From: Histomonas meleagridis | Lineage: Eukaryota > Parabasalia > Tritrichomonadida > Dientamoebidae | Length of the DNA: 56,403 nt | Assembly: GCA_020186115.1 (NCBI GenBank) | Contig: WSYJ01000023.1 | Coordinates: forward strand, 1 to 56,403 | Direction of reading: 5' to 3' | Part shown: positions 2,539 through 38,246 of the stretch, piece after piece | Layout: every line of letters begins with the position of its first letter | How positions within the stretch are numbered: position 1 is the stretch's first letter | Position numbers and translations under genes: made by a program | Notes under the pieces: generated by a model | Database searches by the model: none | What the model was told of the DNA's origin: nothing | The model's input: only the letters and a program-made list of their open reading frames with translations

Positions 2539-3384
2539 CTAATTACTTGAAATTGGAACACCTAAAATATCTGAAAATTGCTGGAGAACTGATTGCTTTC
2601 GATTCTGCTTAATTGCATATACTACATGATCAAAGTAACCGTTCATATTTTCATCAATCATTATTTGCTTAAACAAATTTGCTATTTCGATAGGATCATT
2701 TTTAAATACCCCACAACCATAAGCGCCCAAAATTACAGTCGTTGCACCTCTAGCAACAGCAATTTTTATTATTTTTCGAATCCGATTTTCCAATACTGAA
2801 TGAAGCTTTGGTAAATCATCAGACATTCTAGAACGAACGCATCCAGCGTTTGGCGCACAGCTTACTAGGAAATCAACAACATATGGTGTATCGAGAAAAT
2901 TGAAATTATCATCTTCAAAACATGGACACTTAGAACAATAAACCATATAATCACTATAAAAGAAGTCTTTGCTCCTTTGTCGATGGTATTCATAATATCG
3001 CTGATGTTTACAAAGAACTTTATAAAGACCTGATGCATATGCAAGACTTTCTTCTTGTGCCATTGCCCCATTAACAAATCCGCCACATACGTTTTTAGCT
3101 GATGAAAATACAAGACACATAGTATTTGGTTCATTTTGTTCAACTACTGATTTATAACAGGCGTGCAATGAAGTATCACTAATAATTTCAACACGTGATT
3201 CCTTCATTGGATTTGGTGGAATTTGAGGACAATCTTCAGGTGGAAATTCAACTGTAGATCTGAAGCATTCTTCAAAAAAAGGTAAAAGATCAATAACTTC
3301 ATCTCTAGAATTTTTGTACTTTGCTTCTTTAAGAATTTGTAAAGTTTGGGCTGCTTTTTGCTTTAATAATTTTATATTCTTCAC
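2539..3384 (-). CDS. microbial-type PARG / TIGR02452 (DUF2263) macrodomain protein
   Basis: 281 codons. Residues about 8-60 match the N-terminal helix region of the family (AAQTLQILKEAKYKN). The macrodomain holds the PARG signature as CGGFVNGAMAQEE (GG, six-residue gap, QEE) near residues 100-112, then YYSDYMVYCSKCPCF, a Cys-containing SCAPNAG loop and the phosphate loop GAYGCGVFKND. These proteins remove ADP-ribose from proteins; the catalytic Glu pair is present. Oddity: the frame begins at GTG (3384) directly after an in-frame TAA, and no in-frame ATG precedes the conserved N-terminus. The first internal Met would delete it. A base error at the start codon, a shift in the nearby A/T run, or a non-ATG start are the options. 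It is divergent from the glucosidase II beta gene. Confidence 0.8.
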   Translation of the reverse strand: MKNIKLLKQKAAQTLQILKEAKYKNSRDEVIDLLPFFEECFRSTVEFPPEDCPQIPPNPMKESRVEIISDTSLHACYKSVVEQNEPNTMCLVFSSAKNVCGGFVNGAMAQEESLAYASGLYKVLCKHQRYYEYHRQRSKDFFYSDYMVYCSKCPCFEDDNFNFLDTPYVVDFLVSCAPNAGCVRSRMSDDLPKLHSVLENRIRKIIKIAVARGATTVILGAYGCGVFKNDPIEIANLFKQIMIDENMNGYFDHVVYAIKQNRKQSVLQQFSDILGVPISSN

Positions 3385-3413: not shown

Positions 3414-4956
3414 ATGCTTATTTGGTCGGAATTGTTACCCAGAATTTCAAGTGTTTTTTATCTATTATTTCTTATCAGTTCGATCTGATCCATTTGGGAT
3501 TAACCCATCTCTTTCACGTGAATACAAAGAAGCCATAAACATTAAAAACAACTCATTTACATGTCTTGATCATTCTATGACTATTCCATTATCGTCATTA
3601 AACGACGGAAAATGCGACTGCCCTGATGGCTCTGATGAACCTGGCACCAATGGATGTTTGAACGGTCATTTTTATTGTCGTAATATTGGAGGCAAGCCTA
3701 AAACTATTCCCTCAATTAAAGTCAACGATGGTATTTGTGATTGTTGTGATGGCTCCGATGAATATGACAATCCTAATGCTCAGTGTCCTAACATCTGTTC
3801 AGATCTTGTCACACTTAGTTTAAATTCACGTGATTCCATTTATCGTCATATTGAATTAGGACTTCGTCGCAAGCGAGAAATTGAACCTTCAATACAATCT
3901 GACTATTCCAAATCACAAGAGACTCTCCAAGAACTTCGTCAAGACCTTAAAAAGATGGAACACGAACTCGACATTTTAAATCGTGAGAAACGCGAAAAGC
4001 GAAAAATATGGAAAATAGAGAAGCGTAAACTCAAAGGCATTAGTGAAGAAGAATATGCTGAACTTAAACTCCGCAAGCAACAATACATTAATAAGCCCAA
4101 AAAGCCAAAAGAAGAATATGTTGAGCCAGATCCACATGGATTAAATGTACCATTTGATGAAGCGCTTGGAAGCATTGATTGGAATGTTGATGAAGGCATT
4201 GAAGAATTAATATTTGAAGCCACTCCACGTCCGGCACCAATTCGCCGTCGTAATGATCATTATCCTCATCAAGAGAATGATGAAAATGCTCGAATCGAAC
4301 ATCGCAAACGTAAATGGAAAGAATTAATGAAAGCAGAAAAAGCGAAAAATTTAGAAGCACAAAGTGCTAAAGGATTTTTGGACAAAGCGCGTTCGACTAT
4401 AAAGGATATCACTGGTAAAGTGTTTGGTGATAAGCCGAAGAGTTACGAAGAATATAAATCCATTGAAAAACAAATTAATGGATTAAATAATGATATGACC
4501 GATATTCGAGCTTCATTATATAGACTCGAAAAGAAGTTGAATCATGACCTAGGAGCTAATAATACATGGTTCCCTTTAAGTGAGGAGCCTTTCGAGATAT
4601 CTAAGGATGGTAATGATTTTCAAATTGTGTTTTTCAATCATGTGTCAAGTAGACAAACCGGATCAAATTGGTTTGGTACTGGTTGTGGTGAGTTTAAAGG
4701 ATTTGATGAGACTGGGAATGTGATGTTGTATGAGGACGGACAAATGTGTTGGCAAGGTTCGCCTCGAAGAACTGAAGTTGTGTTGTATTGTGGTAGTAGA
4801 AATAAGTTTTTGGATATTGAGGAAATCGATAGATGTGTATATAGAGCACACTTCGAAACGCCATTGATTTGTAGAGAGAATTATGCTGATTGGATTCGGA
4901 AAATGTCCGATTTGGATTTGACAGATTATATTACAAGATGGCAAAAAGTAGAATGA
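3414..4956 (+). CDS. glucosidase II beta subunit (PRKCSH/GTB1-like)
   Basis: About 500 residues. The order is that of the ER glucosidase II regulatory subunit: N-terminal 'FGI.PSL..EY', two Cys-rich LDLa-like modules (KCDCPDGSDEPGT; ICDCCDGSDEYDN), a long charged coiled coil (about 140-380), and a C-terminal MRH lectin domain with MCWQGSPRRT, VVLYCGS and the closing Cys pair. The beta subunit recruits the catalytic alpha subunit to N-glycans during glycoprotein folding. No HDEL-type signal is seen (ends RWQKVE). The long frame (from 3451) has no ATG before the first domain. ATG 3414 opens a good signal peptide (SVFYLLFLISS) in the +1 frame, and the two join if one T of the run at 3454-3459 is extra, so a homopolymer error or real frameshift is likely. 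Confidence 0.88.
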
Positions 4957-6556: not shown

Positions 6557-8588
6557 TTAATGTTGCTGCTGATTACTTTGAAGTAAATTTACTATTTCAG
6601 TGAAGCCTTTTGCAGTTGCACACATAATCGGTGTTGTAAATATTTTGAATAATTTCCGAATATTAATATTAAATGATAAAATGTCTAAGTAAACATCATG
6701 ACAAATAAGTAAATATCTTTCTCATTTGGATCTATACCTTTTTTAAGAAGCATCTTTACAATTTTAGTAAAACCATTTGAAACTGCAATAATAAGCGGCG
6801 TTGTAAATATTTTTAATGATTTCCAAATATTATTTTGAAACATAAAATTATTAAAACAAATAGGAAATAAAATAAATCAATACCTTTATATTTAATATTA
6901 ATCCCTTCTTGTTTTAGAAGTAGTTTAACTATTTCATTATAGCCATTTTCAATTGCAAAAACAAGTGCTGTTTTAAGTATAATAAATAATTTCCAAATTT
7001 TATTATTAAATTTTATGCTGTTTAAACAAATATTAAACAAAACAAATAAATATCTCTAACATTGATATCAATTCCTTTTTGCTCAAGAAGTAATTTAACA
7101 ATATCAATGAAACCTTTCGATGATGCAAACATTAGTGCTGTTTTATATTTATTAAAGAAAATCCAAATAAATTAACTTAACATTAAACAATTTCATTAGA
7201 TATTATATAAACAAATTAATCACCTTTAGCATTAATATTATCAACACCTTTCTCAATGATATATTTCATAACTTCTATATTACCACTATACGAAGCAGCA
7301 ATAAAAGAATTTTCAAATCATTTTAATGTATTCCGAATCTATAAATGAAATATATTTTTATAAAAACAAATTCTAAAAAAAATCAAAAAACATTTTTTGT
7401 GTTAATATCAATTTTCACTTCTTCAACGAAGTATTTTACAAGTTCGAAATTTCTTGAAAGTATAGAGTTATATAAAATATCATTTGGAGGATTCCTTCCT
7501 TCAAGGAAATGATTAATCAGAAATATATTACCAATTTTTGCTGCTTCATTTATTAAGTCCTCATTAGTTTTCATTCCATTTTCTTCTAAGTATGATATAA
7601 GTTCATAATTAAAAAATATAATGCATTTCTTTCCTATATCAGGAAGATCTTTTTTTCTAAATTTAATTTTTTTATTATCAAAAAGATATCGAAAAATATC
7701 ATTTCGATGATATTCGATAGCTATTTCATAAGATTTAGCAAAAGATACTTTATTTTGTTCACATAAATGTAATATTTCAAGGTTTCCACCTGCAACTGCA
7801 TATTTTCCGATTTCATTTGTTTTATCTCTCAAAAAATGTGGATAATCTAAAACTAAATATTTAAAACATTTAACAGAACCGAAATAAGCAGCATAACTAA
7901 CAAGAGAAACTTCTTTTTCATTTATAAATGAATATTTTTCATATATTGATGGTGGTATCTTTTGAAAGCAAATAAAACTGTTATTCGATAAAAGTTCTTG
8001 AAGTTTTTCAAGATCATCATTTCGTATTACTTTTGCAATTTCTAATGGATTAACTCCTTCATGTATCAATTTCTTATGAAGAAACCAATCATCTTTCTTT
8101 AATTCTTCAATGTTTTCTATTAATTTTTCCGAATTTTTTTCTTTAAAAAGAATTTGTTGAATTTCTTCATCGGTTTTATAATGTGCAAAATAAAATGTAT
8201 CAAATGATTTAACAAAACTTGGTTCAATCATCTTTTTCTCAATCATGCTTTCTACAAAGTAATATGACTCTTGTGGTTTATATAAAAAGTTTAATAATGA
8301 TAAAAGATCTTTAGTTGTATAATTATCTTGAAGGAAAGAGGAATTCTTTTCTTGAATTAATTGTAGAAATGTTAAAAGAACATTTGCATCACCACTTTGG
8401 CATATAAAAGAAGAATATACAAGTTGTGATATAATACGAATAAAGGTGATTGGAAAATGAGTATCAAAATTTTCCAAAATTTTTTCGACTGATAACTCTA
8501 TATTATCTTTGTTAAGATTATAAACTATAGATGATAATGTCTCAAGATAAGTTAAATATTTTTTATCTTTTTGTTTTTTCCCTTTCAT
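6557..8588 (-). CDS. DUF3447-ankyrin protein, locus A (first exon plus five single-repeat modules)
   Basis: The first segment (8588-7392, about 399 codons, intact) carries an N-terminal helical region and the DUF3447 ankyrin-like core, recognisable by LVSYAAYFGSVKCFKYL, KYAVAGGN, LCEQNK and YHRNDIFRYLF, then ankyrin-like repeats ending DINTKN. It is followed by five separate ankyrin modules: 7314-7222, 7144-7052, 6974-6882, 6804-6715 and 6637-6557, the last with a natural stop (QQQH, TAA). Every module starts one codon before the Thr of TAL/TPL and ends at the NAKD position. All five spacers are exactly 77 nt. If the spacers are removed, one clean frame of roughly 545 residues results. Ankyrin proteins bind other proteins; the partner is unknown. 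Parabasalids hold very large families of these. Exact splice points are not determined. Confidence 0.75.
6638..7391 (-). repeat. five 77-nt spacers between ankyrin modules (locus A)
   Basis: Spacers 7391-7315, 7221-7145, 7051-6975, 6881-6805 and 6714-6638 are each 77 nt; with the next codon each is 80 nt, or four 20-mers. They differ considerably in sequence. Shared signs are a start like (A/G)TTT(A/G)TTT, and in four of the five TTYGGAAATYATT across the unit 3/4 boundary (unit 3 ends TTTGGA in the other). Module-to-module period is 170 bp. Confidence 0.8.
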
Positions 8589-13826: not shown

Positions 13827-14321
13827 ATGTCTGCTCTTAGTGGAAAGAAAGTTCTTATTGCCTTCTATACAAAGACAGGAATTACAAAACAAGTTGCTGA
13901 TATCATCAAAGAAAATGTTGGTGGTGATCAATTCCAAATCCAAACTGTTACACCATACCCTGACAACCACGATGTCCTTATTGAACAAGTTAAAAGAGAA
14001 CAATCAAATGGAGTGTTCCCAGAAATTGTATCCAAAGGTGATATTTCACCATATGATGTTATATTTGTTGGATCTCCATGCTGGTGGGGAAGGCTTTCAT
14101 CTCCAGTTGGAGCATTCTTAAAATCTCATGATTTCACTGGAAAAATAATTATTCCATTTATCACACATGGTGGAAGTGGCCTTGCTTCAACAGTTAGCGA
14201 CATGAAGAAATACGCTCCTGGTGCAACATTTTTGAACGGTTGTGCATTTGGTGATAAGCGTTGGGTAAGACAATTCCAAAGGTCTGAAGTTGAAAACTGG
14301 CTTCATAAGATGAAGTTATAA
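13827..14321 (+). CDS. flavodoxin-family protein
   Basis: 164 residues from ATG 13827, complete. The FMN phosphate loop is YTKTGITKQVAD at residues 14-25 (pattern T/S-x-T-G-x-T). VIFVGSPCWWGRLSSPVGAF at about 77-96 gives the second FMN loop with the aromatic WW pair, and PFITHGGSGL the third. It should bind FMN and act as an NAD(P)H- or ferredoxin-linked electron carrier or quinone-type reductase in the cytosol or hydrogenosome. Flavodoxin_4-like proteins are common in anaerobic bacteria and trichomonads. The upstream region has TCACATCACAT, a possible initiator, 15 bp before the ATG. Confidence 0.85.
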   Translation: MSALSGKKVLIAFYTKTGITKQVADIIKENVGGDQFQIQTVTPYPDNHDVLIEQVKREQSNGVFPEIVSKGDISPYDVIFVGSPCWWGRLSSPVGAFLKSHDFTGKIIIPFITHGGSGLASTVSDMKKYAPGATFLNGCAFGDKRWVRQFQRSEVENWLHKMKL

Positions 14322-24585: not shown

Positions 24586-26731
24586 GTAGTTATTATTTTT
24601 ATCGATTCCTTTTTGTTCAAGTAGTTTTTTAATTATTTCTGTGTATCCGCCCTTAAAAAATGTATTAAATAATCATAACAAATTCCAAATTTGATAATGA
24701 AATGCTAAATTAACAAAACATATATCAAATAAAATAACTAAAAATCTTTAATATTTAAATCTATTCCTTTTTGATGAAGAAATATTTTTACTAGTTCTTT
24801 ATTACCAGAATAAGATGCTTTCATAAATGATGTGACAAATATTTTTAAGAATTTCCAAATAAGATAAATAAATATCTTCATTATCAATATCAATCCCATC
24901 GTGTTCAAGAAGTAATTTAACTATTTCCATGTGGTGACCTTTGAAATATGCTTTTATAAGTGCTGTTTCACATATTTTGAATAATGACAAAATATTATTT
25001 TGATATTTGAAATTATCAAAAAAAAAGAAAATAGAAAAAATTAAAATTTCTAACTCCTGTGTCAATCCCTTTATGTTCAAGAAGTAATTTAACTATGGTT
25101 TTATCATTTTTTAAAGATGCTTCCATAAGTGCTGTATTAAATTATTCAAACAATTTCCAAATATTATTTTGAAATCCCAAATTATTATAATAAATTTTAA
25201 ATAAAACAAATAAATATCTTTAGCATTAACATCAATTCCTTCTTGTTCAAGAAGTAATTCAACTATTTCTGTATGACCACTTAAAGATGCAAAAATAAGT
25301 GCTGTATTAAATGATATAACTAATTTCCAAATATTATTTTGAAATCCAAAATTATTATAATAAATTTTAAATAAAACAAATAAATATCTTTAGCATTAAC
25401 ATCAATTCCTTCTTGTTCAAGAAGTAATTTAACTATTTCTGTATAGCCATTTTTAGATGCTGTTATAAGTGCTGTTTCAAATAATTTAAATAATTTCCAA
25501 ATATTATTTTGAAATATAAAATTGTTAATAAAAATTTTATGTAAAATAAAGAAATATCTTCGGCATTAATATCAATTCTTTTTTGCTTTAAAATGTATGC
25601 AACAAGTTCAATATTTCCTGAAAATGAAGCAAAAACTAAAATATTTTCTGGAAGTTGATTATTTTTAAGGAAATATTTTACAAGAAAAATATTTCCGATT
25701 TTTGCTGCTTCATTAATGATATTTTCATTAATTTTCATTCCTTCATTTTCTAAATATGTAAAAATTTCATAATTAAAATATGAAACGCATTTTTCTCCTA
25801 ATTTTTTTAATTTATTAATATCTTCAATTTTATTTTCATAAAGATATTTAAAGATATCATTTCGATGAAACATGATTGCAGCTTCATATGCTCCTTCAAA
25901 AGATGAATGATTTTGTTCACATAAATGAATGATTTCCTCATTTCCACCTGCAACTGCATATTTACCTGTGTTTTCTACACTTGAACCATTCATAAGTAAA
26001 TATTTAAAACATTTAATTGATCCAAAAAATGCTGCATAATCAATTAATGTAACATTTCTTTGATTAATAAATGAACATCTTTCATACATTGATGGAACAA
26101 TTTTTTGATTAAAGTCAAAATCACTTTGTGATGATATTTCTTGAAATTTTTCTATTTCATCATTACGAATTATTTTCGCAATTTCTTTTGGATTAACTCC
26201 TTCTTTAATTAATTGCTTATGAAGTGCAAAATCATTCTATGAAAGTTCTTCATAAGAAATATTTTCTTGATTAAATAAATATTTATATTTATCTGGTTTA
26301 TCTTGATTAATATGAACAAAAAATGGTTTATGTATATTTTGAATGATTTTTGATTCAAGTAAATTATACTTAATCATGTAATTAAGAAAATAAAATGATT
26401 CTTGAGTGTTTTCTTTAAGAAGAAATTGAGAAAATAAATTTATTATTTTTGAGTTGATTTTATTATTTTCTTCACATTTTTCAATTTCTTGGAATAACCT
26501 CAAATATATATCAAAATTATTATTATTAATCAGAAGAGATGTATATATCATTCGGCTTATAATGGTATTTTAAGATATTGGATATTCTTTACAAAACTTG
26601 CTGAGAATAAAATTTGATGATTGAGCAAAATTATCTATATTCAAACCAAAGATTATATTTTTGAGCGTTGTAAATGTTTCCCATTCGTTTTGAGATTTCT
26701 GATTTGTTGTTGTTGTTTGCTTTTGATGCAT
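24586..26731 (-). pseudogene. DUF3447-ankyrin protein, locus B (two nonsense codons)
   Basis: Same plan as locus A. ATG 26731 (MHQKQTTTTNQK) opens the first segment. It is broken by TAA near 26570 (YPIS-stop-NTIISRM, where the paralogs have Phe) and by TAG near 26240 (ELS-stop-NDFALH, where paralogs have Lys or Asp). Beyond that the DUF3447 core is intact (YAAFFGSIKCFKYLLMNGSS; KYAVAGGNEEIIHLCEQNHS), ending at 25556. Six ankyrin modules follow: 25478-25386, 25308-25216, 25138-25045, 24969-24874, 24836-24744 and 24666-24586. Spacers are 77, 77, 77, 75, 37 and 77 nt. Module 7 lacks two residues. The 3' end is unclear. Nonsense codons at non-homopolymer sites support a real pseudogene, or a gene needing upstream removal of these codons. 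Confidence 0.7.
24667..25555 (-). repeat. 20-mer-quantised ankyrin spacers (locus B)
   Basis: Spacers: 25555-25479 (77), 25385-25309 (77), 25215-25139 (77), 25044-24970 (75), 24873-24837 (37) and 24743-24667 (77). The 37-nt one equals the first and the last 20-mer only, and keeps both the ATTTATTTAT start and the GGAAATT...ATTT end. The 75-nt one has lost two bases, possibly in the A8 run at 25018-25025. Confidence 0.75.
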
Positions 26732-30984: not shown

Positions 30985-32909
30985 TTATGGAATTAGTTTA
31001 TCTTTATTTTCCTCGAATATTTTATCAAGCATACAATTAGCATTAATTTCAATTCCTTTTTGTTCAAGAAGTAATTTAACTATTTCCGTAAAACCTTCTT
31101 TAGATGCCAAAATAAGCGCTGTTTGAAATAATTTAAATAATTTCCAATTATTATTTTATAATATCAAATTATTAAAATAAATTTTAAATAAAACAAATAA
31201 ATAATAAACATAACAAATAAATATTAAATAAAACAAACAAATATTTCTACCATTAACATCAATTCCTTTTTGTTCAAGAAGTAATTTAACTATATTACTT
31301 TTCCTCGCTTCCATAAGTGCTGTATAAAATAATTTAAATAATTTCCAAATATTATTTTGAATTTCCAAATTATTAAAATAAATCCAAAATAAAACAATTA
31401 AATATCTTTAGCATTAATATCAATTCCTTTTTGTTCAAGAAGTAATTTAACTATATTACTTTTCCTCGCTTCCATAAGTGCTATATCAAATAATTTAAAT
31501 AATTTCCAAATATTATTTTGAATTTCCAAATTATTAAAATAAATCCAAAATAAAACAATTAAATATCTTTAGCATTAATATCAATTCCTTTTTGTTCATG
31601 AAGTAATTTGACTATTTCTGTATGACCATTATAAGATGCTTCAATAAGTGCCGTTCTAAATAATTTAAATAATTTTCGAATATTATTTTGAAATCAAAAA
31701 TTATTAAAATAAATCTCAAATAAAACACATAAATATCTTTTGCATTAATATCAATTCCTTCTTGCTTTAATATATATTGAACATGTTCTATATTTCCTGA
31801 TCTCGCTGAAGAAACTAAAATATCTTTTGGGATAGGATTTTCTTTAATCAAACATTTTGTAAGAAATATGTTTCCTTTTTTCGCTGATATATTTATAATA
31901 GAATCATTAATTTTCATTCCTTCTTTGAGTAAAAATGATAAAATTTCATAATTACAAAAAGAAATACATTTCTTTCCTAAGTGATTCAAATCGATTTCAT
32001 TAAATTTATTTTCATAAAGATATCATTTCGATGAAACATAATTGCAACTTCATATGCTCCTTCAAATGAAGAATGATTTTGTTCACATAAATGAATAATT
32101 TCTTCATTTCCACCTGCAACTGCATATTTACCTGTATTAATTACATCTGCATCATTCATAAGTAAATATTTAAAACATTTAATTGATCCAAAAAATGCTG
32201 CATAATCAATTAATGTAACATTTCTTTGATTAATAAATGAACATCTTTCATACATTGATGGAACAATTTTTTGATTAAAGTCAAAATCACTTTGTGATGA
32301 TATTTCTTGAAATTTTTCTATTTCATCATTTCGAATTATTTTCATAATTTCATTAGGATCATGTCCTTCTTTAATTAACTTCTTATGAAGTTCCCAATCA
32401 TTCTTTTTAAGATTACTTATGTCTAAATCATCAATAAATTTTTCATCACACGAATCAAACAATTTATTTAATTCTTCATCTTCCGTGTAATAATGCATAA
32501 AATAAAGTGATTCTTTTTTTTTTTAATAATTTTTTGATCAATTATTTTTTGCTCTATCATACAGTCTAAAAAATAATATGATTCACTAAAAAATTTAAAA
32601 TTCTTATTAAGCAAATGTATAAATACATCCAAAATCTTTGATTTACAATGAATGTTTTTTTTCATATTCGTCAATTTTCTTTACAAAATCTATACATATG
32701 TCCGCATCACACTTTTTAATAGCAAACAATAAGAGAATCATTTGACCAATAATTTGATTAAAAGAGTATGAGTAATTTGAATCGAATATATCAATGATTG
32801 ATTGCACTGATTGAGAAACATTATCATGAACTAAACCGAAAATTATATATTGAATTAATTGGAGTTTTTCCCATTCATTTGTATCAGCATTATTAGGAAT
32901 GCGTTGCAT
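30985..32909 (-). pseudogene. DUF3447-ankyrin protein, locus D (three frameshifts)
   Basis: ATG 32909 (MQRIPNNADTNEWEKLQ) opens the same plan as loci A, B and E. The frame shifts near T8 at 32655-32662, near T11 at 32514-32524, and near 32020, where about 10 bases present in paralogs are missing. The DUF3447 phrases are otherwise intact and almost identical to B. The first segment ends at 31735. Modules: 31657-31565, 31487-31404, 31326-31243, and a last one from 31125 that reads through to a natural stop (GIEINANCMLDKIFEENKDK..., TAA at 30985-30987). Spacers are 77, 77, 77 and 117 nt. Two shifts at homopolymers may be assembly errors; the 10-base loss is not. Head-to-head with locus E, 104 bp between ATGs. 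Confidence 0.7.
31126..31734 (-). repeat. 20-mer-quantised ankyrin spacers (locus D)
   Basis: Spacers 31734-31658, 31564-31488 and 31403-31327 are 77 nt; 31242-31126 is 117 nt. The 117-nt spacer is a 77-nt type with exactly 40 extra nt, in which the ATTTGTTTGTTTTATTTAA start phrase is repeated. This shows whole-unit gain. Confidence 0.75.
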
Positions 32910-33013: not shown

Positions 33014-36000
33014 ATGAACAGCTTCTACGCAATGAATTTTCAAAGCTCAGCTACTCCAGAGGAGCCTATTAAAATCGAAAATGAAGATCATATTTATCAA
33101 TCAATCTCAATGGAATTACTTATTACGTCAGAACACATCATATTCAACTTATCCGAAGAAAATATTGAATCGTCAGCTCACCAAACGATGATATTGTTTG
33201 ATCCAAATTTCCCACTTTCATTTAACATTCTAATAAGTAGATTGGTTTATTATGCCATTTTAACGCAAAACAAATCATTTGAAATATATTTAAATTACTT
33301 AAAAAACATCCAAAAAAATGAAACTGATAAAAGTATTCCTGATGTCATTACATGTTTTATTAATTATGCATCTAAAAACAAATATCAAGAATCATATTAT
33401 TTAATTGAAAAAATGATCGAAAAAAATTTACTTGATAAAAGCATTACTAATGATATTCAATCACCATATTTTGCACATCTAAATCCCAAAAAATTCACTC
33501 AGACAAATCAGAGTAATCAATTGAATGGACCACCTCAATTTCCGTTCTCAAAACCATATTATCGATTTAAGAAAACGCTAATTCAATCCAATATTACATT
33601 AGCGATTTCTCCAGAACTTTCGAAGAATAATTTCGAACTTCATAAGAAATATATTGAAGAAGGACATAATCCTAATGAAATTGCGAAAATGATTCGAAAT
33701 GATGAAATAGAAAAATTTCAAGAAACATCATCACAACCAAAATTTAACTTTAATCAAATAATTGAGCCATCAATGTATGAAAGATGTTCATTTATTAATC
33801 AAATAAATGTTACATTAATTGATTATGCAGCATTTTTTGGATCAATTAAATGTTTTAAATATTTACTTATGAATGGTTCAAGTGTAGAAAACACAGGTAA
33901 ATATGCAGTTGCAGGTGGAAATGAAGAAATTATTCATTTATGTGAACAAAATCATTCTTCATTTGAAGGAGCATATGAAGCTGCAATTATGTTTCATCGA
34001 AATGATATCTTTAAATATGTTTATGAAAATAAATTAGAAAAATCAGATGAAAATAGCCAACAAAACAAATCAAATACACAAAACTTCCAAAATTATATGA
34101 ATATGTTCAATTTTTATCGTAATAATAAAAAGACACCAGATATTAATGATTTGGGAGTTTTTTGCATAAAAAATGGAAATTATGAAATTCTTTCATTACT
34201 AGAAAAAGAAGTCATGAATGTTAATGACTCTTCTATTAATGATGTCGCGCAAGATGGTAACTTATATCTTATTAGAAATTTGTTCCAACATTGTCAAATT
34301 CCGAAAAATATTTTGGCATTTGCAGCAGAATCTGGAAATATGGAACTTATTAAATACGTTCTTACTATTTCTGGTATTGATGTTAATGCATTGAATGTTT
34401 ATTTTAATAATTTAAAAATGCTTGCGTTAAGTATTTGGAATTTATTTTAATGATTTAAAGCAGCACTCCATTTGGCAGTCGAAAATAATAATATGGAATT
34501 ACTTAAATTACTTTTGGATAAAAGTACAATTGATATTAATGTAAAAACTGTTTGTTTTGTTGTTTTAATATTTGTTTTAATATTTTAGTGTTTGTTTTAA
34601 TGTTTTAGTGTTTGTTTGATTGTTTTAATGTTTGTTTTAATGTTTTATCATTCGTTTTAATGTTTTAATATTCGTTTAAATGATTTAAATATAGTCATAA
34701 TCTTGAAACTGCTCTTCATTTGGCTGTTAAAAATAATAACATTGAAATGGTGAAATTACTTTTAGATAAAGGAATTGATGTTAATGGTGCATATGTTTGT
34801 TTCCATGACGTGATATTTAATACAAAAATTTGCAATTTGTTTCAAAAATTTGATATTTGTTATAATATTTCAGAATTTGTTTTAATATTTCAAAATTTGT
34901 TTTAACATTTCAAAATTTGTTTTAATATTTTATAGATTTTTTAAGTAATTTGGAGTTTGTTTGGATAATTTGATGTTGATTTGAATGATTTGATATTTAT
35001 TATAATTACTTTGGATTTGTTGCAAAAATTTATAATTTACATATATAATTTGATGTTTGTAATAACAATTTGATGTTTATAATAGCAATTTGATATTTGT
35101 TTTAACAACATGAAATATGTTTTGTTAATTTTGGATATGTTTTTATATTTTCTAATATATTTTAATAATTTGAAATTAGTTTTTAAGATTTGATATTTGT
35201 TCTTAAAATTTGATACTTGTTTTTATGTTTTGAAATTTATTATAATGTTTTGATGTTTATTTTAAAGACTTTGGATTTACTTAAAAGATTTTGGGTTTAT
35301 TTTTATTATTTGAAATTTATTTTGGTAATTTGAAGTTTGTTGTGGTTATTTGATATTTCCTTTAATGATTTGAAGTTTACTTCGGTAATTTGATATTTGT
35401 TGTAATAATTTAGAATTTGTTTTAATGTTTTAGTATTTATTATAATGTTTTAAAGTTTGTTCGAATCTTTTAGCATTTATTTTAATAATTTTATATTTAT
35501 TTTAAGTATTTAAAGTTTTACTTTATAATTTGGTATTTATATTAATAATTTGTAATTTATTTTGTTGATTTGGTACAGCACTTCATATAGCAATCAATAA
35601 TAATAACATCGAAATGTTTAAATTACTTTTAGAACATGAAGGAATTGATGTTTATGCAAAGTGTGTTTGTTTTAACAAGAGATAATTTATATAAATAATT
35701 TGAAGTTTGTTCTAATAAATTAAAGTTTGTTTTAGTTATATGAAATATGTTTTAATAATTTGATATTTGATTTTATAATTTCATATTTGATATAATGATT
35801 TAATGTTTATTTAAATGAATTTACTTTTGTTTTAATAATTTGAAATTAATTTAATATTTTCGAAGTTTGGTTTTGTAATTTGAAATTTGTTTATATATTT
35901 TTGTGTTTCTTTTAATATATTAAAGTTCTTTTTCACAATTTCATGTTTATTTTTATGTTTTGAGATTTGTTTAAGTAATTTGATATTCGTTTTATTAATT

Positions 36001-38246
36001 TTATATTTATTTTATTAATTTTATGTTTGTTATAAGGATCTAAAATTTGTTTAAATAATTTACAATTTGTTATAATAATTTTGTATTCGATTTCATAATT
36101 TAATATTTATAATAATGATTTTATGTTTCATTAAAATATTTGTGGTTCTACTTTATAATTTAAAATTTATATTAATATTTCGATGTTTATTTTATTAATT
36201 TGGAACTGCTCTTCATTTAGCAATCAATAATAATAACATCGAAGTGTTTAAATTACTTTTAGCACATAAAGGAATTAATCTTAATGCAAGATATGTTTGT
36301 TTTACTTGTATGTAATATAATTTAAAAATTTTATGTTTGCTTTATTTATTTGAGATTTCTTTTGATATTTTAAAAATTATTTTCATAATTTGATGTTTAT
36401 TATACTGTTTTAAAGATTGCTTTATTAATTTAACGTTTGTTTTAATGGTTTTATGTTTGTTTTAATGTTTTAGAATTTATTTTAGTTGTTTTTAGTTTGT
36501 TTCAACAATTTTCAGTTTATTATATTGTTTTAAAATTTGTTTTGATAATTTGAAATTTGTTTAAATTGTTTTATATTCATATTAATGTTTTGGGGATTGT
36601 TTTAATATTTTGATATTTGTTTTGAGGATTTTGGATTTGTTTTAATAATTTACTATTTGTTTTAAGTATTTAAAATTTATTTATATAATTTGATATGTAT
36701 CTTCTTAACTTTTTATTTATTTTAAATATTTGAAATTTATTGTAATTATTTGAAGTTTGACTTATTCTTTCAGTATTTATTAGAATAATTTTGGATTTAT
36801 TTCAATGTTTTAATATTTATTTCAATAGTTTTATACAGCACTTCATTTAGCAGTAAAGAATAATAATATCGAAATGGTAAAAATACTTTTAGATTCAAAA
36901 AAACTTGATATAAATGGAAAATATTTTTGTTATAATAATTTGAAATTTGTTTTATTGACTTTGGATTTGTTTTAATGATTTAAAATTTACTTAAAAAATT
37001 TCGAATTTATTTAAAACATTTAACATTTGCTTTAATAATTTTATATTTATTTCATTAATTTAGAATTTGTTTTTGTAATTTGAAATATATTTTATTAATT
37101 ACAAATTTATTTATGTATTTTGATATTCGTTTTAATGATTTAAAATTTGTTTCTGTAATTTGATATTCGTTTAAAGAATTTAAAATTTGTTTTATTAGTT
37201 TGATATTTGTTTTGAGAATTTTGGGTTTGTTTTATCGTTTTAAAATTTGTTTTATTCATTTGAAATTTGTTTTAATCTTCTAAAGATTATTTATTGATTT
37301 TGATATTTGTTTAAATGTTTTAATTTTTGTTCCATTAATTTAATTTTTGTTATAATGATTTGAATATTTTTGTAATATTTGAATACTTATTTCAAAATTT
37401 TAATATTTATTATATTGATTTGGTACAGCACTTCATATAGCTGTTGAAAATAATTACATCGAAATGGTGAAATTACTTTTAGAACAAAAAGAAATTGATG
37501 TTAATGCTCAAGATGATAATTTGTTATATTTAAAATTTGTTTTAATTTTTTAATATTTTTATGTAACATTTGGAAATGATTTAAACTGTTTCAAACTCCA
37601 TTTTTTATTGCATGTAAAAAACAATATAAAGAAATCATCGAATTACTTAATAATAATGTACGGCAAAGAATAGAACTTATGAATGCTTCTAAAAATGGTG
37701 AAATAGATAAAGTTGAAATGCTTATTAAACAAAAAGGATTTGATGTCAATATTAAAAATGTTTTTAGGTTTTGTATAATATTTCGTAATAATAATTGGAA
37801 ATTATTATAAATATTTGAAACAGCACTTATGTGTGCTGCTGAAAATGGTCATATAGAAATAGTTAAAATCCTTCTTCAACAAAATGGTATCGATATTAAT
37901 GCGAAAGATATTTATTTATTTTATTGAATATTAATTTAATTAATTTAATATCTGAAAATAATATTCGGAAAATATTCGATTTTTTTCAATCAGCTCTTAT
38001 AAAAGCATCTTCAAATGGTAAATTAGAAATAGTTAAAATACTTCTTGAACAAGAAGGAATTGATATCTTTGGAAAGAATATTTATTTGTTTTGTTTAAGA
38101 TTTATGTTAATAATTTGATATTTCAAAACAAATTTTGGAAATTATTGAAATATCATAAAGATGCATTTGCCATTGCAGCAGAAAAAAGGCAATATGATAT
38201 TGTTCGCATGTTGATTGACAAAATTCAATCAATGCCTGATCATTAA
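33014..38246 (+). CDS. DUF3447-ankyrin protein, locus E (intact; ten modules with long spacers)
   Basis: ATG 33014 opens an uninterrupted first segment (33014-34396, 461 codons): N-terminal helical region, DUF3447 core (LIDYAAFFGSIKCFKYLLMN, KYAVAGGNEEIIHLCEQNHS, MFHRNDIFKYVYENK), then repeats ending DVNALN. Ankyrin modules follow at 34457-34549, 34705-34794, 35572-35664, 36202-36294, 36832-36924, 37422-37514, 37592-37759 (a double module), 37817-37909, 37987-38079 and 38157-38246, ending QSMPDH-TAA. Each starts at (G/E/K)TAL and ends at the NAKD position, with no stops inside any module. Spacers are 60, 155, 777, 537, 537, 497, 77, 57, 77 and 77 nt. The full coding length would be about 780 residues. 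All modules being open across 3.8 kb argues that this gene is under selection and that the spacers are removed. Confidence 0.7.
34795..35571 (+). repeat. 39-unit array of diverged 20-mers (777-nt spacer)
   Basis: The interval plus the following codon (GGT) is 780 nt, 39 x 20. Units follow RTTTRTTTTAWTRATTTRRA with many substitutions and almost no net length change. Stop codons are frequent in all frames. It separates ankyrin modules ending GAY and starting GTALHIA. Confidence 0.8.
35665..36201 (+). repeat. 27-unit array of diverged 20-mers (537-nt spacer)
   Basis: 537 nt plus the codon GGA is 540 nt, 27 x 20. Same consensus and phase as the other arrays. The start GTTTGTTTTAACA follows the module end AKC. 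Confidence 0.8.
36295..36831 (+). repeat. 27-unit array of diverged 20-mers (537-nt spacer)
   Basis: Identical length to the preceding array (537 nt; 27 units with the codon TAT), but clearly different unit by unit, so it is not simply a recent copy. Modules and spacers here give an exact 630-bp period (35572, 36202, 36832). Confidence 0.8.
36925..37421 (+). repeat. 25-unit array of diverged 20-mers (497-nt spacer)
   Basis: 497 nt plus the codon GGT is 500 nt, 25 x 20. Units can be read off directly from 36945: ATTTGTTTTATTGACTTTGG, ATTTGTTTTAATGATTTAAA, ATTTACTTAAAAAATTTCGA and so on, each exactly 20 nt. Confidence 0.85.

Follow-up and report, generated by a model that had tools for sequence, protein, structure and literature searches.

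Ultrashort introns are the closest described systems to the element considered here, a 17-nucleotide (nt) insert that recurs in ankyrin-repeat genes of Histomonas meleagridis, a parasite of poultry. The insert was followed up from one stretch of DNA, contig WSYJ01000023.1 (56,403 nt, called the window below), where locus E occupies positions 33014-38246. Introns of 15-16 nt are described in Stentor, of 16-17 nt in mikrocytids and of 18-21 nt in chlorarachniophyte nucleomorphs (PMC9505925, PMC10245619). The type B introns of Trichomonas measure 23-28 nt, with GT/AG ends and a CTAA branch motif merged into the 3' end; one of the two species has 24 of them and the other 52 (PMC12316389). In Fritillaria and the hemistasiid diplonemids, most introns violate the GT/AG rule and parts of the spliceosome are retained (PMC13326754, PMC12621601). 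The Histomonas genome paper, whose gene prediction was trained on a transcriptome, reports 573 introns, with no gene having more than one; the word ankyrin is absent from its main text, and its assembly version differs from the one used here (PMC8529796). Titles and abstract openings in the Histomonas literature give no description of introns of the present kind, a scope that does not take in the transcriptome paper behind the annotation.

How do the Histomonas inserts compare with these systems? They resemble the introns of Stentor, the mikrocytids and the chlorarachniophyte nucleomorphs in having a near-fixed length at the known minimum for introns. Those introns are scattered over many genes, whereas the inserts stand in tandem, with putative one-codon exons, and have been seen in one family. 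Stentor introns carry common splice sites, but the inserts are without GT...AG. The type B introns likewise are short introns, in parabasalid relatives; they follow GT/AG, unlike the inserts, where the form GT...AG is found in 1 of 614. Fritillaria and the hemistasiid diplonemids offer a precedent for introns that break the GT/AG rule, as the inserts do. The diplonemid introns, with medians of 37 and 91 nt, are longer and their ends can pair, whereas the inserts have no clear pairing.

An earlier note on the window had described ankyrin modules in loci A, B, D and E that are split by spacers with lengths in steps of 20 nt, each spacer being taken as a single intervening sequence that is excised whole. 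Much of this stands: the modules remain in a common reading frame, spacer lengths are quantised, and the quantum is not explained by coding constraint acting on the entire spacer. The reading as a single intervening sequence is not supported. As read from the DNA, the 20-nt quantum is a composite of one 17-nt insert and one stop-avoiding codon, and the codons would supply the four-residue loop of the ankyrin repeat; the near-fixed insert, the stop avoidance, the phase and the gene family can each be followed there directly. The inserts are most probably ultrashort phase-0 introns, excised from RNA as 17-nt units, with single-codon exons between them. Their absence from some relatives, their near-fixed length and their A+T content of 90% argue for such behaviour. 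The inserts would then sit between the codons of the loop that joins successive ankyrin helix pairs, each 20-nt unit would consist of an intron followed by a one-codon exon, and removal of the inserts from the RNA would leave a continuous ankyrin protein.

Spacer length was taken from the codon after NAK up to Thr, which equals the value in the earlier note plus the one codon before Thr. Genome-wide searches covered the H. meleagridis assembly (43,276,120 base pairs (bp), 121 contigs). Spacers with both module ends matched, 203 of them distinct, came from the window, 20 DUF3447 stretches and seven non-redundant array-pattern loci. The DUF3447 stretches, of about 9 kb each, lie around the best-scoring DUF3447 matches, the 20 loci being the best of 150 scored out of 1695 first-look candidates. 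Eight array loci were chosen via the array pattern, and nine ankyrin loci (L038-L040, L042-L047) were included for plain or mixed loops. Left out before counting were L001-L008 and L033, which overlap others, and L037 and L041, which hold a small nuclear RNA (snRNA) and Prp8. Usable intervals came from 31 sources and comprise 256 distinct intervals between neighbouring ankyrin modules.

Evidence for a codon in the unit is found at positions 18-20. This triplet is never a stop in the 1010 units (715 distinct) drawn from 27 sources; the frames shifted by one nt contain 517 stops when moved before it and 42 when moved after it, in the same units. Independent base frequencies predict 50.8 stops among 686 distinct units, and none occurs. 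The length-parsing script bars stops in codons, so its parses alone are not evidence for stop avoidance. Summed entropy peaks at triplet 18-20, which also changes most often between close spacers; triplet 15-17 is lowest on both counts. Among single positions, 5 and 9 come near position 18 in entropy. A triplet that is variable yet free of stops, next to one that is least variable, suggests an insert held in sequence and length and a codon that is free except for stops. We infer that these codons are translated.

Could the inserts be kept in the messenger RNA and skipped by the ribosome? Such bypassing would likewise give one frame, and the inserts are A/T-rich and of near-fixed length. Known bypassing uses matched take-off and landing codons. 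In 103 of 954 cases the same codon stands on both sides of an insert, a slight excess over the 88 expected by shuffling and far below the known matching, on which ground bypassing with matched codons was rejected. Locus E would require 143 hops, and ribosomal bypassing is considered highly improbable.

The codons of the units also make sense as protein. A plain ankyrin repeat has four extra residues, x-x-Gly-x, between NxKD and T-x-L when set against the 30-residue modules seen here. If the unit is 17 nt plus one codon, an 80-nt spacer would yield exactly four codons, which matches the four-residue loop. Codons 1-4 of the 80-nt spacers are N/K/D, D/N/Y, Gly (105/144) and E/N/K/D; at the other 19 offsets Gly is third in no more than 7 of 163. 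The mean score against the loops of uninterrupted genes is 2.02 at this offset and negative at all others. A pattern search that is independent of the module model, starting at the Gly codon and ending at the following module, found 1853 places, and the predicted gap of one 17-nt insert and one codon was present in 100 of 100 among the matches listed, with 3-23 allowed.

Lengths point the same way. A series of 12+17m (12, 29, 46, 63 and 80 nt) accounts for 192 of the 256 distinct intervals, with 13, 1, 1, 14 and 163 intervals for m from 0 to 4, and the mode of 80 nt represents four 17-nt inserts and four codons. Other multiples of 20 make up 38 intervals, and 11 follow 17m+3k with a different codon number. 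Another 11 are 1-2 nt longer than a rule value, as though one insert were 18-19 nt, and four fit no class and probably contain an unrecognised module. Every length of at least 32 can be expressed as 17m+3k, so the weight rests on the narrow 12+17m series, not on the fit of the long spacers. At the spacer site, uninterrupted relatives within this genome carry exactly 12 plain nt (13 distinct intervals). At locus L040, plain loops occur alongside two 29-nt loops, each with one isolated 17-nt insert whose start and end can shift by a few nt, and one 63-nt loop. A search with the flank pattern GCTAAAGAT to ACAGCACTT, set 6-36 nt apart, gave no matches, so intervals of 12 or 29 nt gain no support from it.

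The multiples of 20 noted in the window extend beyond it, as 181 of the 203 distinct spacers are exact, far beyond chance. Might each spacer be one intron-like element that is removed whole, its length quantised in the manner of a 20-bp minisatellite? The long spacers are indeed 20-bp tandem arrays, and at lag 20 four spacers of locus E have identities of 0.61-0.68, compared with 0.32 in the window. Removal of the whole, however, predicts neither the avoidance of stops at positions 18-20 nor an ankyrin loop there, and both are observed. It would discard a loop that the uninterrupted relatives retain, and the minisatellite leaves the lengths 29, 46, 63, 66, 83 and 86 unexplained; this explanation is very unlikely. 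Helical-turn phasing was also considered and rejected, as lag 10 carries little signal.

If the inserts are ultrashort introns, isolated ones beside plain loops would represent the simplest state. Units of intron plus codon, 20 nt long, may then have multiplied in tandem to give runs of up to 39 and spacers of up to 780 nt. Every copy of the unit would add one residue, and the outcome would be hydrophilic extensions of the loop.

The ten spacers of locus E have the lengths that the earlier note reported; the features of the locus are as follows.

33014..34396, plus strand: first exon block, with ATG, DUF3447 (33.1 bits) and the first ankyrin-like helices, within an open reading frame (ORF) at 33014-34450
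34397..34459, plus strand: spacer 1, 63 nt, three 17-nt inserts and four codons (K N G K)
34550..34707, plus strand: spacer 2, 158 nt, seven 17-nt inserts and 13 codons, the final 18 nt being six plain codons that precede Thr
34795..35574, plus strand: spacer 3, 780 nt, 39 units (17-nt insert and codon), with no stop among the 39 codons
35665..36204, plus strand: spacer 4, 540 nt, 27 units
36295..36834, plus strand: spacer 5, 540 nt, 27 units
36925..37424, plus strand: spacer 6, 500 nt, 25 units
37515..37594, plus strand: spacer 7, 80 nt, four units, loop codons K N G Q
37760..37819, plus strand: spacer 8, 60 nt, three units, loop codons N G E
37910..37989, plus strand: spacer 9, 80 nt, four units, loop codons N N G Q
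38080..38159, plus strand: spacer 10, 80 nt, four units, loop codons K D G K
38160..38246, plus strand: terminal ankyrin module, with an in-frame stop, a hydrophilic C-terminal end and no spacer downstream

Locus E would have 143 inserts in total, and subtraction of 143 x 17 from its 5233 nt leaves 934 codons, the stop included. Whole codons in each spacer follow from the parse itself; the real check on E is that the exon blocks are in frame as well.

Spacers of the other three loci are all on the minus strand.

7312..7391, minus strand: locus A spacer, 80 nt, four units, loop codons R Y G E
7142..7221, minus strand: locus A spacer, 80 nt, four units, loop codons N N G K
6972..7051, minus strand: locus A spacer, 80 nt, four units, loop codons N K G K
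6802..6881, minus strand: locus A spacer, 80 nt, four units, loop codons P Y G T
6635..6714, minus strand: locus A spacer, 80 nt, four units, loop codons D I G T
25476..25555, minus strand: locus B spacer, 80 nt, four units, loop codons K Y G E
25306..25385, minus strand: locus B spacer, 80 nt, four units, loop codons K W G N
25136..25215, minus strand: locus B spacer, 80 nt, four units, loop codons K G G N
24967..25045, minus strand: locus B spacer, 79 nt, 1-2 nt off the rule, with a run of nine T
24834..24873, minus strand: locus B spacer, 40 nt, two units
24664..24743, minus strand: locus B spacer, 80 nt, four units, loop codons D S G N
31655..31734, minus strand: locus D spacer, 80 nt, four units, loop codons E L E R
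31485..31564, minus strand: locus D spacer, 80 nt, four units, loop codons W G G D
31324..31403, minus strand: locus D spacer, 80 nt, four units, loop codons W G G Y
31123..31242, minus strand: locus D spacer, 120 nt, six units, codons N I K D G Q

The five spacers of 80 nt in A and the 80, 80, 80 and 120 nt of D agree with the earlier measurements, as do five of the six in B (80, 80, 80, 40 and 80); the remaining one is 79 nt here and was given as 78. The script scored one B and two D spacers too short because the following module was only partly matched, and direct reading gives 80 for each. Three of 25 spacers had been listed as exceptions to the multiples of 20. Two of these, at 63 and 158 nt, are accommodated by 17m+3k, and the one of 78 or 79 nt remains 1-2 nt off; its deviation could be a sequencing slip or a genuine short insert. 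Pfam matches place DUF3447, as had been claimed, and ankyrin in the first exon of each of the four loci, with the ankyrin match for D just below the cut-off. Pfam, the module model and the loops together find ankyrin helices, a loop x-x-G-x ahead of T-x-L and DUF3447 upstream, which identifies the family. The first exon of locus D (31986-32909, minus strand) is partly out of frame when compared with locus E and may belong to a decayed copy.

Across the genome, the core of an 80-nt spacer, with up to three mismatches allowed, occurs at 4513 places, compared with none in a reversed control. Each match spans one complete insert and the end of another, which gives about 9000 inserts; by extrapolation there would be about twice that number if the loops hold the usual four. 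At least one 80-nt spacer is present in 19 of the 20 DUF3447 stretches, L013 having none. When the window and the 20 loci were scanned for 17-nt segments linking two long open frames, 53 junctions emerged. Eight of the top ten are flanked by ankyrin-loop sequence, and the remaining two come after open frames 377 and 437 codons long. The eleventh junction, in the DUF3447 exon of locus D, was set aside as ordinary coding DNA, the copy there appearing frameshifted. Other genes were also inspected. Prp8 gives no sign of inserts, a single frame being open across 2333 codons, and there is none in 30 of 33 proteasome-family matches, where most of the domain is covered in one frame. Thirteen of the 20 other ORFs of the window have Pfam matches and give no sign of inserts within the ORF, which is open by definition, the sequence beyond it not having been examined. 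Two unit patterns had no match in viral contigs.

What would remove the inserts? Their sequence is roughly (A/G)TTTATTTTAATAATTT. The genome has spliceosome parts, namely Prp8 and two U2 copies, and a U6 snRNA is found at L037 1501-1608 (C36:377228-377335), with ACAGAGA followed by AAATTT and a score of 43.7 against the Rfam cut-off of 44. As to a branch site able to pair with the GUAGUA of U2, 19 of the 614 distinct inserts contain CTAA and 67 contain TTTTAAT. The exact motif GTATGT-(5-35 nt)-CTAACACACAG had no genome matches, longer Trichomonas-type introns falling outside this pattern.

Several observations weigh against the inserts being introns of ultrashort type, and they are collected here. 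One of the 614 inserts is GT...AG, 110 begin with GT, and the most frequent pairs of end letters are A..T (399) and G..T (128). Insert 4 of the 80-nt type begins with AA in 85 of 144 and with AT in 39 of 144. CTAAC is in none of the 614, although U2 keeps the ordinary GTAGTA, and U1 was not found in the genome with the Rfam model. Conserved RNA structure was tried as a signal and rejected, with no clear fold or covarying stem: the fold of one consensus loop is no better than that of shuffled versions (z -0.47), and the best stem has an excess over independence of 0.049 across 163 spacers. Among 24 orders of the four loop codons the native one comes second, and inserts have been seen in ankyrin genes only. 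Selection on the modules looks weak, with a ratio of 0.71, similar to dN/dS (nonsynonymous to synonymous change), from 792 overlapping close pairs. Of 32 arrays, 21 have a last recognised module that is not clearly the end of the gene: more spacer follows it or the case is ambiguous, and a missed module or the end of the stretch is possible. The other 11 count in favour of the introns, as by reading the last module there meets an in-frame stop soon after the second helix, in keeping with a protein end.

The weak constraint on modules raises the prospect that those downstream are never joined, and represent decayed genes or silent cassettes that donate sequence via gene conversion. Damaged-looking loci would agree with this, for example the first exon of locus D and the DUF3447 stretch at L013, which has two internal stops. 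From silent DNA, however, one would expect neither stop-free isolated triplets at 20-nt intervals, nor an insert kept at 17 nt, nor a stop-bearing module at the end, and silence of the modules has a very low probability.

Excision as ultrashort introns is preferred, and the near-total lack of GT...AG stands against a usual spliceosome. The chance that the spliceosome is the excising agent is put at about even. A bolder proposal, offered tentatively and itself somewhat doubtful, is a dedicated or radically relaxed machine that would measure 17 nt with a ruler and use neither GT nor AG. It would serve some ten thousand inserts in one gene family, with one-codon exons in runs of up to 39, and the unit would act as a minisatellite that lengthens loops.

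If RNA confirms the removal, the inserts would rank with the shortest known introns and with the most tightly packed ones. Common aligners score so small a gap as a deletion, a possible reason why such introns had gone unnoticed. One-codon exons would then be possible in long series, and introns would be recognisable at a near-fixed 17 nt without GT...AG. A genome reported with 573 introns would hold many thousands in one family (PMC8529796). The system could also provide a test of the minimal needs of a splicing machine, and duplication of an intron plus a codon would constitute a route by which protein loops evolve.

Other ORFs of the window deserve brief mention. The one at 53335-54693 matches a protein kinase domain and, after it, a Ras-family domain. 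Those at 2539-3384 and 13827-14321 match microbial-type PARG and Flavodoxin_4, respectively, and are possibly bacterial acquisitions.

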